Part shown: positions 517-4,713 of the stretch, one piece after another | How the letters are laid out: every line of letters starts with the position of its first letter | How positions within the stretch are numbered: position 1 is the first letter of the stretch | DNA from: Thermoplasmata archaeon | Lineage (GTDB): Archaea; Thermoplasmatota; E2; UBA202; JdFR-43 | Reading direction: 5' to 3' | Assembly (NCBI GenBank): GCA_003650975.1 | Contig: QMSU01000103.1 | Location: 1-5,071, forward strand | Length of the DNA: 5,071 nucleotides | Notes under the pieces: generated by a model | Told to the model about the DNA's origin: nothing | Seen by the model: only the letters and a program-made list of their open reading frames with translations | The model's database searches: none | Program-made: the position numbers and the translations under genes

Positions 517-1165
517 ATTTGAGGTTGTCCGGTTTCTCATCGGGGCAGCTATTCTTGCATATGCCGCATACAGTGATGTGAAACATCGTGAGGCACGCGA
601 TATACTATGGGTGGCAATGGGCGCCATCGGTGTGGTTCTGCTGGTGGTGGAGAGGCCCGATACCACCACCACGCTCGTATCAATGGCCATTTCATTTCCC
701 TTTGCCTTCCTGCTCTATATTGTGGGCATGGGAGGGGCGGATGTGAAGGCACTGTGGGCCATCACGCTTCTGAGTCCCCTTCCCCCGCATTCCATGCCCT
801 TTTTTCCGCCATTGATATTCGTGTTCCCGCTGGTGGTGCTGCTCAACTCTCTCATTCTCATTGTGTTTTTGCCACCCATCTATCTGATTTACAATGCATA
901 CAGAAGGGACTGTGAATTTCCCTACTGTCTCTTCGGGTACCGGATGAAGGCAAATCTCGCAAAACATAAATTTGTATGGAGCATGGAAAAGGAGGGTAAA
1001 AAACGGATAATGCCCTTCAAGGACTGCGACATGGAAACAATGGGTGAGAGAGAAATATGGGTCACCCCTCAACTGCCCTTTCTGGTGTTTATCTTCGCGG
1101 GATTTGTGCTCTCATTTCTCTTCGGGGACATCCTTTTTTTCGTTTTTTCTCTTTTCCTCAAGTAA
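509..1165 (+). CDS. Archaeal prepilin/preflagellin peptidase (A24 family, FlaK/PibD-like)
   Basis: This is a membrane aspartyl protease of 218 aa that would cleave class III signal peptides of archaellins and type IV pilins on the cytoplasmic side of the membrane. The first catalytic Asp is D23, at the end of TM1 (AYAAYSDVKHREARD). The second is D78 in GMGGADVK, the GxGD-type motif in its common archaeal GGAD form. Their spacing fits FlaK (D18 and D79 in Methanococcus maripaludis). Hydrophobic segments lie near residues 5-22, 33-48, 55-73, 82-90, 98-125 and 187-217, with a soluble polar stretch near 127-185. The ATG lies inside the end of the upstream gene (8-nt overlap) without a clear ribosome binding site, so translation is probably coupled. 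The 3' end overlaps the convergent response regulator by 54 bp. The sequence alone does not distinguish archaellin from pilin substrates; no archaellum genes are visible. Confidence 0.88.
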   Translation: MNEFEVVRFLIGAAILAYAAYSDVKHREARDILWVAMGAIGVVLLVVERPDTTTTLVSMAISFPFAFLLYIVGMGGADVKALWAITLLSPLPPHSMPFFPPLIFVFPLVVLLNSLILIVFLPPIYLIYNAYRRDCEFPYCLFGYRMKANLAKHKFVWSMEKEGKKRIMPFKDCDMETMGEREIWVTPQLPFLVFIFAGFVLSFLFGDILFFVFSLFLK

Positions 1166-1759
1166 CTGCTCTATCTCATCTGTCCTTTTCTTTATGGTCT
1201 CAATCAGTCGTTTCTGACTGAGGATGAGATTTTTCACCGAGTTTTTGAGTTCTTCCGCCGCAGAATCGATGATGACGCCTATCAGCCGCCGGTGGCGGTT
1301 CATGGCCTTCACCAGCCGGAGATATTCCTCGGCCGTCTCCTCACCTATTTCCTTCTTAAGTTCGTTGTATACTTTTTTTGCCTCGCTCTCCCGCTCAAAT
1401 ATGTCCTCTATTTTTTTGAGTAATGTCTCCCTTCTGAAGGGTTTGACAATGTAATTCTCTATGCTGTTTATCGGCTTATCCTTTGTGTCATCCGGTGTGA
1501 GAGGCAGCGCCGTAAGCATTGACACCGGTATATCCCTGAGCTCGTCGTCGCTCTTTATTTTCTTCAGCGCCCCCCATCCGTCAAGTTTCGGCATGAGAAT
1601 ATCAAGAAGTATCAAATCGGGTTTCTCCTTTTTTGCCATCGCAACACATTCCTCGCCGTCGGATGCGGTGATCACCTCGTAGTGGTCCTCGAGCATTTTT
1701 TTCACGATGTTGACAATTTCCGGCTCATCATCTGCAATCAGTATTTTCTTCTTCATCAT
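1112..1759 (-). CDS. Response regulator: REC domain with long helical C-terminal tail
   Basis: This 215-aa protein has an N-terminal receiver domain (about 1-122) with all key residues: acidic pair D10/D11, phospho-acceptor D53 in LILLDILMP, T83, and K106 in the YIVKPF motif. Residues 123-215 are charged and helical, probably a coiled coil, ending in a Lys/Glu-rich tail. No DNA-binding domain, GGDEF or other output enzyme is visible, so signalling is probably through protein contacts. The start ATG overlaps the stop of the upstream ATPase gene (ATGA, 1756-1759). A strong GAGGAGG ribosome site lies at 1764-1770 inside that gene. Two ATGs are adjacent (1759 and 1756); the second has the more usual spacing (7 nt), so the protein may start one residue later. 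No histidine kinase is in the window. The natural partner suggested by the operon is the AAA+ ATPase. Confidence 0.92.
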   Translation of the reverse strand: MMKKKILIADDEPEIVNIVKKMLEDHYEVITASDGEECVAMAKKEKPDLILLDILMPKLDGWGALKKIKSDDELRDIPVSMLTALPLTPDDTKDKPINSIENYIVKPFRRETLLKKIEDIFERESEAKKVYNELKKEIGEETAEEYLRLVKAMNRHRRLIGVIIDSAAEELKNSVKNLILSQKRLIETIKKRTDEIEQLLEEKRKNEKKDVPEEK

Positions 1760-2409
1760 AACGCCTCCTCAAGTTTCACCAGTATCTCCCGTACGGTGCT
1801 CGCCGATTCAATGATATCCTTCACCAGCTGCTTTCCAAAGGGCTGGAAATCTTCTCCTCCTCCCGCCTCAATACGCTTTCTCACCATTTCCATCAGCACA
1901 TCAACCGAGGGCATCTCAAGGGACATTTTTTCCACATCTCTTCCCCTGAGATATTCCTTGAATTTGTCGATGGGTTCCACAGATGCCAGCACCACCGAGA
2001 TATGCAATTTTTCATCATCCAGTTTGCTGACAACGAATTTGATGATGCTGTCATCGGTGATGTAATCCACATCATCAATCATGAGTAGAATCGGCTTTTC
2101 AATATATTCCTTCCGCAAAAAAACTCTCGAGAAGAACGAAGCTCTCGTCTCCTTTTCAATGGTCTCCTTGAATTCTTCAAATTTCAGATCAGCCCCACCG
2201 TGAAAGTACAGTGGAAGAATTTTGTAGTGATGGGCAAACTCGTTTATCCACAGAAGAAAGGTGGTTTTCCCCATGCCTGTTTTTCCCTGCAGCCAGAAGC
2301 AGTTGCTTTTCCCGCCCAGCGCCTTTAAAATAATTTTCCGTGCCTCTTCCTTGTACACCATGAAATTCGGATTGGGCTCGTTCGGATTAATGAATAACTC
2401 TTCTGGCAT
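1756..2409 (-). CDS. Stand-alone AAA+ ATPase (DnaA/Cdc6-like P-loop domain)
   Basis: This is a P-loop ATPase of 217 aa from the ATG at 2409, or 222 aa from a GTG at 2424. Numbered from the GTG: Walker A is GKTGMGKT at 47-54 and Walker B is ILLMIDD at 112-118. A sensor-1-like strand is SVVLAS at 143-148. A YLRGR segment at 158-162 sits where initiator-type AAA+ proteins have the box VII Arg. A sensor-2-like TVRE with R212 lies in the last helix. The layout resembles the core of DnaA/Hda or Orc1/Cdc6, but there is no C-terminal DNA-binding domain; a STAND/archaeal ATPase origin is the alternative. The ATG at 2409 is preferred because a TATA box is centred about 25 bp upstream, predicting a leaderless start; the GTG has only a weak AGGA upstream. 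It overlaps the response regulator by 4 nt, so they should act in one pathway. Substrate unknown. Confidence 0.85.
   Translation of the reverse strand: MPEELFINPNEPNPNFMVYKEEARKIILKALGGKSNCFWLQGKTGMGKTTFLLWINEFAHHYKILPLYFHGGADLKFEEFKETIEKETRASFFSRVFLRKEYIEKPILLMIDDVDYITDDSIIKFVVSKLDDEKLHISVVLASVEPIDKFKEYLRGRDVEKMSLEMPSVDVLMEMVRKRIEAGGGEDFQPFGKQLVKDIIESASTVREILVKLEEAL
1764..1770 (-). promoter_or_regulatory. Shine-Dalgarno site for the response regulator
   Basis: GAGGAGG on the minus strand lies 4 nt before the first ATG and 7 nt before the second. It sits within the last codons of the upstream ATPase gene and supports re-initiation or coupled translation at the ATGA overlap. Confidence 0.75.
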
Positions 2410-2431
2410 TCGGGTATAAAACACCTTTTCC

Positions 2432-2446
2432 TATATATTTCTTTCA
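2432..2446 (-). promoter_or_regulatory. TATA box/BRE for the ATPase-response regulator operon
   Basis: The minus strand reads TGAAAGAAATATATA, a purine-rich BRE-like stretch followed by AAATATATA. The TATATA centre (about 2434.5) is about 25 bp from the ATG at 2409, the normal archaeal TATA-to-start distance, so the mRNA is predicted to begin at or within a few bases of the start codon. It overlaps the stop codon of the upstream dehydrogenase gene. Confidence 0.55.
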
Positions 2447-3412
2447 CTTTTTCCACACATCGGGATTCACGCAGTTGGGTGGCATCACTCCCTGGAGAAC
2501 GGCGCGTACGTTTTCTGCCACCATCACCGCCATTTTACTGCGTGTTTCGTATGATGCGGAGCCGATGTGGGGCGCCAGCACCACATTATCAAGTTCCAAA
2601 AGTTCCGGTGTTACCGCTGGCTCGTGCTCGAACACATCCAGAGCGGCGCCCCGTATCCACCCTTCCTTCAGTGCCCTTGCCAGTGCCCTTTCATCAATGC
2701 ACTTGCCCCGTGCCGTATTGATGAGATAGGCAGACGGTTTCATCAATCTGAGTTCTTTTTCACCAATGAGATGGTATGTATGTTCGTTGAAGGGTGTGTG
2801 AAGTGAGACATAGTCTGATTCCTCAAGCAGCGTCTGCAGATCCACAAATCTGGCATTGCAGGAACGTTCAATTTCTTCGTTCCTGCTTCTGCTGTAGTAC
2901 AACACCTTCATATCGAATCCCCGTGCCCTTGCAGCCACCGCCCTTCCTATCCTTCCCGCCCCTATGATACCGAGTGTTTTGCGGTGCACATCGCTTCCCA
3001 GCATCAGTAGGGGTGCCCATCCCTTGAACTTTCCGTCGCGCATAAACGCATCGCTCTCGACGATTCTCCGGGCCACACTCATGAGAAGGGCCCAGGTGAG
3101 GTCGGCAACCGTTTCCGTGAGTACACCGGGCGTATTGGTAACCGAAATGCCCCGCTCCGTGGCCGCCTTCACGTCAATGTTGTCGATGCCCACCGCATAG
3201 TTTGCAATTATTTTCAGGCGGGGCGAGGCATCCATCACCTCTGCATCTATCGGGTCAGTGAGCAGGCATATGAGCACATCCTTTCCCCTCACACCCTCAA
3301 TAATTTCCTCCTTGGTGGGAGGGGCATCTCCCTCATAGATGTCCATCTCATGCTCCCTGAGCATGGCAAGACCCTCCTCGGGGATTCTGCGCGTGAGAAA
3401 TATGCGTGCCAT
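2444..3412 (-). CDS. D-2-hydroxyacid dehydrogenase (glyoxylate/hydroxypyruvate reductase type)
   Basis: This 322-aa protein is a full-length member of the D-isomer 2-hydroxyacid dehydrogenase family, which reversibly reduces 2-oxoacids such as glyoxylate or hydroxypyruvate with NAD(P)H in the cytoplasm. The Rossmann motif GAGRIG is at 151-156. The catalytic set is R235 (LINTARGK), E264 (DVFEHEP) and H282 (APHIGSAS). Other family motifs are NYAVGIDNID (71-80) and NTPGVLTETVAD (93-104). After the second Rossmann strand comes YYSRSR (172-177) instead of an acidic residue; as in Thermococcales glyoxylate reductases, this suggests NADP(H) can be used. There is no C-terminal ACT domain, which argues against a long-form phosphoglycerate dehydrogenase. 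The frame is open to 3493, but MARIFLTRRIPEEG at 3412 is the natural family N-terminus and has a TATA box about 24 bp upstream. Substrate preference cannot be read from the sequence. Confidence 0.9.
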   Translation of the reverse strand: MARIFLTRRIPEEGLAMLREHEMDIYEGDAPPTKEEIIEGVRGKDVLICLLTDPIDAEVMDASPRLKIIANYAVGIDNIDVKAATERGISVTNTPGVLTETVADLTWALLMSVARRIVESDAFMRDGKFKGWAPLLMLGSDVHRKTLGIIGAGRIGRAVAARARGFDMKVLYYSRSRNEEIERSCNARFVDLQTLLEESDYVSLHTPFNEHTYHLIGEKELRLMKPSAYLINTARGKCIDERALARALKEGWIRGAALDVFEHEPAVTPELLELDNVVLAPHIGSASYETRSKMAVMVAENVRAVLQGVMPPNCVNPDVWKK

Positions 3413-3462: not shown

Positions 3463-3553
3463 AGAACTCATGGAAAGCGCAGTGGTGAGGCACCCGGCTG
3501 AGAGTTCAGCCTCTGTCCATTGCGTCACCTTTCAAAGGATGCGGGGATGTTTT
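3463..3553 (+). ncRNA. Possible structured small RNA (intergenic, strand inferred)
   Basis: A nested fold lies at 3477-3525. The outer 9-bp helix pairs G3477-G3485 with C3517-T3525, including G.U pairs. An internal loop of 10 and 5 nt follows, then a perfect 6-bp hairpin, GGCTGA-GAGT-TCAGCC (3496-3511). On the plus strand the non-Watson-Crick positions are G.U; on the minus strand they become A.C mismatches, which favours plus-strand transcription. A plus-strand TTTTAAGTA element at 3433-3441 predicts a start near 3463-3467, and a T5 run at 3549-3553 could terminate it. A helix of about 9 bp plus a pocket resembles an archaeal H/ACA guide, but there is no ACA box after the stem and no k-turn, so I do not assign it. 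It might instead be a 3' UTR element of nikR. No RNA family is recognised. Confidence 0.3.
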
Positions 3554-3957
3554 TAGATGGCAGTCATGATCAGTTTGCCATGCTTGACTCCCTTGGTGCT
3601 GATGAGCCGGTCGGCAATGCGTTTCACCTCGGATGCTTTCCCCTTTATTGCCAGTGTTTCCATGCAGTGGTGTTTGTCCAGATGGATGTGCATGGTAGAA
3701 ATGATGTGAGGATGTTCGTCATGCTGCAGCTCAATGAGCCTGTCGGATATGCCCCTCTTTTCATGGTCGAAGATGATGGTCAGTGCCCCCACAACCGTTT
3801 CATCGGATTGCTCCCACCGCTCCCTCACCAGGAAGTCCCGTATCAGGTCCCGTATCGCTTCCGAACGGTTTGTGTAGCCCTTTTTCTTTATGGTACGATC
3901 AAACGTCCCGAGAAGTTCATGCTCAATTGATACGCCAAATCTGCTTATTTTTCCCAT
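3553..3957 (-). CDS. nikR: Nickel-responsive transcriptional regulator NikR
   Basis: This 134-aa protein has the normal NikR length. The N-terminal ribbon-helix-helix domain (about 1-48) contains RFGVSIEHELL and the YTNRSEAIRDLIRDFL helix pair. The C-terminal ACT-like metal domain spans about 54-134. All four high-affinity nickel ligands known from E. coli NikR (H76, H87, H89, C95) are present at a constant +3 offset: H79 in ELQHDEH, H90 and H92 in MHIHLD, and C98 in HHCMETL. It should act as a tetramer that binds an inverted repeat when loaded with Ni(II) and represses nickel uptake. The ATG at 3957 follows a GGTGAGG ribosome site. The gene is divergent from two small membrane protein genes across a 97-bp spacer that holds a candidate operator, so it probably controls them and perhaps itself. 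Confidence 0.95.
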   Translation of the reverse strand: MGKISRFGVSIEHELLGTFDRTIKKKGYTNRSEAIRDLIRDFLVRERWEQSDETVVGALTIIFDHEKRGISDRLIELQHDEHPHIISTMHIHLDKHHCMETLAIKGKASEVKRIADRLISTKGVKHGKLIMTAI

Positions 3958-3960
3958 TTA

Positions 3961-3967
3961 CCTCACC
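3961..3967 (-). promoter_or_regulatory. Shine-Dalgarno site of nikR
   Basis: GGTGAGG on the minus strand lies 3 nt before the ATG at 3957, or 5 nt if the GGTGA core is counted. It fixes the nikR start and shows that this gene, unlike the two upstream minus-strand operons, uses a leader, predicted to be about 12 nt. Confidence 0.65.
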
Positions 3968-3991
3968 GTATTTCACTTAAAATAGGAAAAG

Positions 3992-4001
3992 CTTATATAA
4001 G
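3992..4001. promoter_or_regulatory. Palindromic TATA element shared by nikR and the divergent membrane genes
   Basis: CTTATATAAG is a perfect 10-bp palindrome and can be read as a TATA box on both strands. On the plus strand, GGAAAAG precedes it as a BRE-like stretch and predicts a start near 4022. On the minus strand it predicts a start near 3970, just upstream of the nikR ribosome site. Use in both directions is inferred from spacing. Confidence 0.5.
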
Positions 4002-4015
4002 GATATGGGGTTTCG

Positions 4016-4042
4016 GTATCACAAAAATTAAAAAAGTAATAC
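4016..4042. promoter_or_regulatory. Candidate NikR operator, GTATCAC-N13-GTAATAC
   Basis: This is an inverted repeat with one mismatch between arms: GTATCAC (4016-4022), a 13-nt spacer of only A and T, and GTAATAC (4036-4042). Known NikR sites have this shape: E. coli GTATGA-N16-TCATAC (28 bp), and GTGTTAC-N13/14-GTAACAC in Geobacter-type systems. The site spans the predicted transcription start (about 4022) of the membrane genes and ends just before their ribosome site (GAGGTGA, 4044-4050), a position suited to repression. It is next to nikR itself. Confidence 0.6.
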
Positions 4043-4054
4043 TGAGGTGAAAAA

Positions 4055-4402
4055 ATGGCATGTTTCCTCGTACCCGGAACCGAAGCGGTTGTGACAACCG
4101 CTGTGCAAAAAGTGATTGGAAAGGAAAGAGCTGAAAAATTGAAGCTGGGCTGGCTGAATACGATGCTGTGGGGCGGTGTTCTCCTGCTGGCTGTTGAGCA
4201 CATATGGCACGGAGAAGTGGTGCTTTGGCCTCCGTTCCTGACTGCAATGAATAACCCGGCTGACATTGCTCCGATGGTTCATGAAATGGTAACCGTTGGC
4301 GCTGCAATGACGATAGCGATCACACTTGCCTGGATAGTGCTGGTGGCACTCGCTTCCATACTGCCACAGAGAATCGCTGCCAGGAAAGAAGTAAGAGTAT
4401 AA
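4055..4402 (+). CDS. Small membrane protein A of a NikR-linked pair (function unknown)
   Basis: This 115-aa hydrophobic protein has about three membrane segments: a weak or amphipathic helix near 3-20 (contains P7, E10), one at 34-50, and one at 79-103. The C-terminus is basic. The second segment carries LNTMLWGGVLLLAVEHIWHGEV, so E48, H49, H52 and E54 cluster at one membrane face. A short loop (WPPFLTAMNNPADIAPM) leads to H76-E77 (MVHEM) at the start of the last helix. These His/Glu residues look like metal ligands. Similar hypothetical proteins with the VEHxWHGEV and HEMxTVG motifs occur, as far as I recall, in various anaerobic bacteria and archaea without assigned function. It has a good ribosome site (GAGGTGA, 4 nt before ATG), begins just downstream of a candidate NikR operator, and is followed after 14 nt by a probable paralogue. 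A role in nickel uptake, efflux or sensing is inferred from context only. Confidence 0.85.
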   Translation: MACFLVPGTEAVVTTAVQKVIGKERAEKLKLGWLNTMLWGGVLLLAVEHIWHGEVVLWPPFLTAMNNPADIAPMVHEMVTVGAAMTIAITLAWIVLVALASILPQRIAARKEVRV

Positions 4403-4416
4403 AACAAGGGATCAGC

Positions 4417-4713
4417 ATGTGGCTTATCGTGCTCGCTCTGGCAGCGGTGATTGCGACCGCACTGTGGTATGCAAAGGATGAAAAAGGCGAATACCGGCTG
4501 GGATTTCTCAGTTTGATACTCTGGGGCACGACGATAATGGTGCTCGTCGATCATGTCATGGGATATGTGGCCGAAGGAGGGGCGTTTTTTGAGGTAACCA
4601 CTGAGGCGGCAGCGCTGAGCGTCGTGCTGGTCATTGTTGCCCTCATAGTATGGGAGGTCTCTCTCCTGGTAAGAGACCCGAAGGGAAAGTTGATGAACTT
4701 AAAAAGAGGCTAA
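4417..4713 (+). CDS. Small membrane protein B of a NikR-linked pair (probable paralogue of protein A)
   Basis: This 98-aa protein has three predicted membrane helices, near 2-18, 30-48 and 65-85, and a basic C-terminus (LMNLKRG). The second helix, LGFLSLILWGTTIMVLVDHV, aligns without gaps to LGWLNTMLWGGVLLLAVEHI of the upstream protein. LWG and the acidic-His pair (D45-H46 against E48-H49) are conserved, but the following WHGE is replaced by MGYVAEGGAFFE (E53, E59). The two are therefore likely diverged copies that form a heteromeric membrane complex. It lies 14 nt after protein A with only a weak AGGGA upstream of ATG, so one transcript under the same NikR-linked promoter is expected. The stop falls within an 11-bp tandem repeat and overlaps by 4 bp a short ORF on the other strand. 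No known family name can be assigned from the sequence alone. Confidence 0.82.
   Translation: MWLIVLALAAVIATALWYAKDEKGEYRLGFLSLILWGTTIMVLVDHVMGYVAEGGAFFEVTTEAAALSVVLVIVALIVWEVSLLVRDPKGKLMNLKRG

Follow-up and report, generated by a model that had tools for sequence, protein, structure and literature searches.

The stretch of DNA analyzed here (the window), 5,071 nucleotides (nt) from the Thermoplasmata archaeon assembly GCA_003650975.1, is contig C130 of a 313-contig genome (G000) estimated to be 85% complete. It carries nikR, the gene for a nickel-responsive regulator, and, divergent from it, two genes separated by 14 nt, A and B, whose small products have three predicted membrane helices each (Table 1). 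Judging from sequence, we think it probable that A and B handle nickel together, most likely as an importer from a family not described before. An earlier reading of the window from its letters alone (the sequence-only reading) had described a complete NikR with the nickel ligands H79, H90, H92, and C98, divergent from two co-directional genes for small membrane proteins. This description is borne out: the window NikR matches NCBIfam NF003381 at 202.9 bits (cut-off 105) and Pfam NikR_C at 107.5 bits (cut-off 22), its RHH_1 domain also scores over cut-off, and all four ligands are present; the residues singled out in A and B likewise lie where they had been placed.

Table 1. Features of the nikR-A-B region of the window
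Feature	Position	Strand	Basis
nikR, nickel-responsive regulator, complete	3553..3957	-	NF003381, NikR_C, four ligands
Palindromic TATA-like element CTTATATAAG, placed to serve both genes (putative role)	3992..4001	.	Location
Putative NikR-type operator, GTATCAC-N13-GTAATAC	4016..4042	.	Match to reversed NikR signal
Shine-Dalgarno-like GAGGTGA of gene A	4044..4050	+	Location
Gene A, 115 amino acids (aa), predicted three-helix membrane protein, MACF N-terminus, EHIWHGE motif	4055..4402	+	Homologues, alignment, conservation, model
Gene B, 98 aa, A paralogue, three predicted membrane helices and a short C-terminal helix	4417..4713	+	Homologues, alignment, conservation, model, paralogy

The putative operator is an inverted repeat that lies 14 nt past the TATA-like element and directly ahead of the Shine-Dalgarno-like sequence. 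The signal was noticed by eye in A/B loci and afterwards matched to the reversed NikR signal of delta-proteobacteria, GTAACAC-[N13/14]-GTGTTAC (PMC545781). The window box scores 11/14 against the published signal, a value equaled by 2 of 100 mononucleotide shuffles, and taken alone it is modest evidence for a NikR site; what lifts it beyond chance is that the same signal recurs at the same place, around position -40, in other archaeal loci, and the NikR-type repeat of the sequence-only reading is thereby sustained. When the 110 bases before A were scored and a region was called positive if its score was reached in ≤5% of 100 mononucleotide shuffles, the signal was found in 24 of 34 distinct archaeal regions versus 1 of 57 bacterial ones (P 5e-13). 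Positive loci include some that have no nikR in the stretch examined (L002, L004, L006, L010, L012, and L013), and in the nine loci where B comes first the signal precedes B in eight and A in none. As is general for archaeal promoters, the TATA-like element would act as a promoter element and place the transcription start inside the box, so nickel-bound NikR (Ni-NikR) should repress, and repression fits uptake. Where two studies treat the targets of Ni-NikR repression, these are normally uptake genes (PMC545781, PMC10617489). Desulfotalea psychrophila genes 422176-177, a two-gene operon of unassigned function with two reversed NikR sites (PMC545781), could be an AB pair.

The A/B family and its conserved residues

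Searches that depend on shared words returned 4634 A homologues among 4701 candidates, in archaea and anaerobic bacteria, and 94 B homologues among 178 candidates, B being the faster to diverge. Every legible name among the 120 matches listed for A is “hypothetical protein,” and the named close homologues are mostly from Thermoplasmata. A scan of named genomes gave at least 590 relatives, the best 80 of which (23 archaeal and 57 bacterial records) make up our locus set; Thermoplasmata, Archaeoglobaceae, Bathyarchaeota, Clostridia, Chloroflexi, Coriobacteria, Elusimicrobia, and a Treponema are all represented. B adjoins A in 79 of the 80 loci, the exception (L007) being a contig that ends inside A. 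The order is A-B in most loci and B-A in nine found by a phylum search (L103 to L111), and the two genes are divergent in seven complete archaeal loci and one truncated one (L033 included).

A profile of A aligns with one of B over 91 columns (probability 95.8%, E 7e-9), which makes the two proteins paralogues. Natural A-B fusions are also encoded, two of them full (P0215 and P0216) and one without the start of A (P0233), and when an A-B fusion was aligned, the B rows were placed on its A half. Pairing, paralogy, and natural fusion are the usual signs of a heteromer, and together these sequence relations support the heteromeric device that the sequence-only reading had envisaged. A third paralogue, A' (about 97 aa, with an MVCY start, C3 kept, and a motif that is DHxWNGE or close to it), occurs as a single gene in Thermoplasmatota; it sits beside larC and larB in four loci (L121:4065-4385, L184:1971-2264, L185:2136-2426, and L189:1671-1961), three of which also have nikR.

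Conservation was assessed over 120 A proteins (119 from loci plus that of the window) and 117 B proteins, with the more distant A-like rows left out. Seven residues of A (M1, C3, H49, E77, G82, M85, and W93) are kept in all 120; residue 2 is alanine in 117 and glycine in 3, giving an invariant start, M-(A/G)-C, that is absent from the sequence-only reading. E48 and E54 (119/120 each) and H52 (118/120) are nearly invariant. The metal-ligand cluster once suggested for A therefore stands for E48, H49, H52, E54, and E77 and falls for H76, which is kept in 81 of 120 proteins; of the set suggested for B, D45 (117/117) survives, and H46 (63), E59 (71), and E53 (45 of 117) do not.

The model of A (predicted local distance difference test [pLDDT] 85, predicted template modeling score [pTM] 0.70) has helices at residues 5-28, 31-51, and 68-114, and that of B (pLDDT 87, pTM 0.74) at 2-20, 28-53, 62-86, and 91-97. 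A three-helix topology would put the N-terminus and loop 2 on the same side of the membrane. Lysine plus arginine residues average 5.10 in loop 1, 3.90 in the C-terminal part, and 0.23 in loop 2 of A and 1.96, 4.93, and 0.11, respectively, in B, so that by the positive-inside rule the N-termini and loop 2 are predicted to be outside and the C-termini inside. C3, E48 to E54, and E77 of A would then share the outer face; model and charge together thus predict that the invariant and near-invariant residues of A face outside. Because helix 1 of A has low hydrophobicity (mean up to 1.3), its membrane insertion is less sure.

Nickel genes around the pair

When the neighbors of the pair were clustered with no preselection of genes, the commonest clusters in the 80 loci were LarC (21 loci), LarE (17), and LarB (16), identified by matches over cut-off to TIGR00299, TIGR00268, and NF033503; at least one of larB, larC, and larE is present in 24 loci. 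For a controlled comparison we used a nickel set consisting of the reference NikR, LarB/C/E, HypA/C/D/E/F, hydrogenase protease, and [NiFe] large subunit. A member lies within 6 kb in 38 of the 80 loci (7 of 23 archaeal, 31 of 57 bacterial) versus 0 of 39 controls (Fisher P 8e-9), the sequence compared being 798,879 bases for the loci and 354,510 for the controls, 23 of which reach the full 12.4 kb. As controls we took the starts of contigs from 40 of the bacterial genomes and removed one that contained A; some reference proteins were drawn from the loci and applied to both sets, those from L054 and L008 having been named independently.

Individual loci make the association concrete. In L129 the order is A, B, hydrogenase protease, an unnamed 85-aa gene, hypF, and hypD; in L054 genes for a hydrogenase protease and a [NiFe] large subunit come after nikR and a divergent B/A pair; and in L122 nikR and A have hypF alongside. 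The 29 archaeal loci of 3 kb from the phylum search hold nikR in 16, larC in 5, larB in 4, and hypF in 4, with at least one of the set in 17. Since lar genes lie near the pair in archaeal loci (L101, L103, L104, L110, and L111) as well as bacterial ones, the linkage spans both domains. In a sample of 292 genomes of the phylum, A is matched in 60 and NikR_C in 206; of the 60 A-positive genomes, 25 have nikR ≤735 bases from A or an A-like gene. The neighborhood link to nikR that the sequence-only reading proposed to look for is found in this sample, and the lar and hyp linkage lay beyond what that reading could see.

Other importers were sought genome-wide as CbiM/NikM, matches to which include cobalt types, and NicO. 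G000 encodes a VhuA-related [NiFe] hydrogenase large subunit (380.9 bits, below that equivalog's cut-off) with the motifs RICGVC and DPCLACASH, and neither CbiM nor NicO was matched in this incomplete genome. In the window's class, which supplies 80 of the 292 sampled genomes, A is matched in 40 (five by the A' type only), CbiM in 6, and both in 0 of 80 (P 0.013, or 0.027 without the five A'-type-only genomes, relatedness not being corrected for). Among the 40 bacterial genomes taken from A loci, LarC is found in 32; CbiM scores over cut-off in 2 and below it in 2 more, all with LarC, and NicO is found in none. Thirty of the 32 larC-positive AB genomes have neither CbiM/NikM nor NicO over cut-off.

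Further genes occur around the pair. An MntR/DtxR-like regulator, below equivalog cut-offs, occurs at L030:5507-5917 and in six other loci, in six cases just before A, and might regulate the pair in the bacteria concerned; a metal riboswitch, sought through Rfam in 12 bacterial loci, was not found, the only hit being a cyclic di-GMP-II (c-di-GMP-II) riboswitch in L027. A cluster of 140-aa open reading frames (ORFs) with no NCBIfam match directly precedes A at L056:5314-5736 and in four other loci. A 708-aa protein with a His-rich N-terminus is encoded directly ahead of A at L061:3859-5985, and L039 has a 711-aa ORF in the same place. In L018 (Elusimicrobia), which has nikR and AB, 5586-6878 encodes a HydE-like radical SAM domain fused to an N-terminus that is HypC-like. 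Elsewhere in the window, 2444-3412(-), upstream of which nikR ends, encodes a 2-hydroxyacid dehydrogenase (443.7 bits against a glyoxylate-reductase equivalog cut-off of 455), and 1112-1759(-) overlaps 1756-2424(-), the two encoding a response regulator and an AAA/STAND-like ATPase. G000 has two NikR_C matches, one of which is the window nikR.

A candidate nickel importer and its rivals

In our proposal, A and B, each predicted to span the membrane with three helices, likely combine to form a heteromeric importer of nickel(II), and NikR would repress transcription of their genes at times of abundant nickel. Removal of Met1 from A, which the small residue 2 should allow, would leave an N-terminal Ala-Cys whose amine, amide, and thiolate could form a nickel-binding hook of the kind found in nickel superoxide dismutase, by analogy with the chemistry of this enzyme and of NikM. 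At the outer face, Ni2+ would be captured by this hook acting with E48-H49-x2-H52-x-E54, where helix 2 ends, and E77, where helix 3 begins; the ion would then be passed between the helices of A and B. Because no ATPase constantly encoded with the pair was seen among its neighbors, AB would function as either (i) a secondary carrier or (ii) a selective channel. Of the nickel-handling membrane system suggested by the sequence-only reading, the nickel link stands, with nikR, larBCE, hyp, and the NikR signal behind it, and the B ligand set is given up.

Several observations weigh against this proposal. As many as 42 of the 80 loci are without any nickel gene sought, and bacterial loci essentially lack the NikR signal. 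A or an A-like gene is found without B in L122 and L121, and a six-helix pair would be very small for a carrier. Outside the window's class, CbiM is present in 9 of 20 A-positive versus 30 of 192 A-negative genomes. A sample of 116 genomes of one bacterial order, drawn round an AB-bearing genome (G292; hereafter the order sample), with A in 13, LarC in 52, and CbiM in 38, has CbiM in 5 of 13 A-positive (G342, G369, G395, G411, and G442) versus 33 of 103 A-negative genomes; of its five genomes with larC ≤2 kb from A (G292, G342, G395, G406, and G442), three have CbiM, and its LarC enrichment (8 of 13 A-positive versus 44 of 103 A-negative) is not significant. Mutual exclusivity of A and CbiM was accordingly rejected as a rule, since it holds in the window's class and fails both outside it and in the order sample; with CbiM no rarer in A-positive genomes of the latter, the pair is not a simple CbiM stand-in.

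The same co-occurrence of A and CbiM outside the window's class invites the reading that AB chiefly transports cobalt, or cobalt and nickel both, with a metal that varies by lineage, as in CbiM/NikM and NiCoT. Methanogen-like genomes (L112, L113, and L118), in which B-A lies near CbiM-type genes and genes resembling those for synthesis of cobalamin or other tetrapyrroles, suit it best. At L112:4433-5974, B-A is directly followed by CbiM (TIGR00123, 276 bits, cut-off 184), and at L113:4249-8892 the pair is 3.3 kb from a CbiM/NikM-type gene, the other genes there being read by eye as cobalamin synthesis. These contexts are hints of cobalt, or of nickel for F430, and in some lineages the metal of AB may be cobalt; as a general account, however, cobalt seems unlikely to us, since the commonest contexts (NikR, nickel insertion by LarC, and hyp) are nickel specific.

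Tight larC and hyp linkage, the very small size of the proteins, and the presence of CbiM beside the pair in some genomes could also point to a role for AB as a nickel sensor in the membrane, or as a membrane-bound donor of nickel to LarC or Hyp proteins, with no transport. This we find more doubtful still: the invariant residues are predicted to lie outside, whereas LarC and HypA are cytosolic, the NikR signal is in keeping with uptake, and many AB genomes are without CbiM/NikM and NicO. Nickel export fares somewhat worse and appears improbable. Ni-NikR could in principle activate adjoining genes, yet repression is its usual mode for uptake genes, and an operator that overlaps the expected start fits repression by nickel, when export genes should be induced; the neighbors, moreover, are nickel users. 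That the nickel link is chance neighborhood by-catch and the pair does something unrelated, as the loci devoid of nickel genes might suggest, is very hard to credit given the contrast with the controls, the lar linkage in archaea and bacteria, and the NikR signal before the pair.

Import of nickel by AB remains the reading that we favor. A fuller version of it, which we advance tentatively and with slightly less than even confidence, would make AB the first members of a new nickel-importer class shared by archaea and anaerobic bacteria: two paralogous three-helix proteins in which an Ala-Cys hook and an EHxxHxE helix end would catch Ni2+ without a binding protein or ATPase, supplying the larBCE pincer cofactor and [NiFe]-hydrogenases where known importers are lacking, with A' as a single-gene form beside nikR and larCBE in Thermoplasmatota.

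Known nickel transporters and the place of AB

Nickel enzymes drive hydrogen metabolism, methanogenesis, and hydroxyacid racemization in anoxic places, the gut, and the rumen. NikR-controlled nickel uptake beside nickel-enzyme genes is known; what sequence comparison suggests to be new is the A and B proteins themselves. No title or abstract describing such a pair was found in the literature covered, most subscription journals being outside it. The nickel/cobalt transporter families reported in archaea, as listed in the part of PMC2667541 concerned with them, are only Nik/CbiMNQO, NikABCDE, and NiCoT, and the methanogen survey in PMC10617489 screens NikMNQO and NikR; because such surveys count only known importer families, AB would escape them. 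An unannotated family of more than 4,600 A members could fill the importer gap in larC-bearing AB genomes, let annotators name a widespread “hypothetical protein,” and serve as a minimal six-helix system in which to study metal selection and movement.

No Pfam or NCBIfam family matches A or B over cut-off, nor do any when relatives are scanned as sets (38 A proteins in Pfam and 86 in NCBIfam, 56 B proteins in Pfam). Weak matches in both databases (COX1, DUF5676, HlyIII, ThiT, and others) were set aside as scattered, with 1 to 3 members each and a best E of 0.0004. Fold searches with both models gave nothing significant in the PDB, and a sequence search of solved structures gave no match for A; for B it gave four antibody chains (E 0.06 to 1.1), which we take as chance. 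The claim that A and B lack HX4DH, NikM, and ABC (ATP-binding cassette) features withstood motif, Pfam/NCBIfam, and hhalign comparison. For NikM/CbiM (PF01891) there is no Pfam match, and hhalign against 8 CbiM/NikM sequences gives a probability of 0.7% for A and 0.2% for B; for NicO (PF03824) there is again no Pfam match, with hhalign values of 0.1 to 0.4% against 4 NicO sequences. No profile similarity was found to 2 NikN-like sequences (NikN/CbiN) picked by position, a set too small to exclude that family; ABC permease, ATPase, and binding-protein domains are absent from A and B by Pfam and NCBIfam; and in a scan of all Pfam neither protein matches HupE/UreJ, UreH, or CorA over cut-off.

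Metal binding by an N-terminus at the outer face, as proposed here for A, is a feature of NikM. The energy-coupling factor (ECF)-type nickel and cobalt importers NikMNQO/CbiMNQO resemble AB in having small membrane proteins and lar and hyp neighbors, and in other organisms they are controlled by NikR (PMC545781, PMC10617489). Unlike CbiM/NikM, A and B have no MHIPDG/MHIMEG start (the window B begins MWLIVL) and no profile similarity to that family. NiCoT/NicO permeases take up nickel without an ATPase, as AB would, and like A have histidine and acidic residues at a helix end; NiCoT, however, has eight membrane helices, in contrast to three predicted in each of A and B, which lack HX4DH and profile similarity to it. 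NikABCDE shares with the proposed AB nickel uptake repressed by NikR but is an ABC system with a binding protein, and A and B match no ABC family. LarMNQO of Lactiplantibacillus is an ECF system whose nickel uptake genes are encoded with larBCE; AB would fill its place beside larBCE with unrelated proteins.

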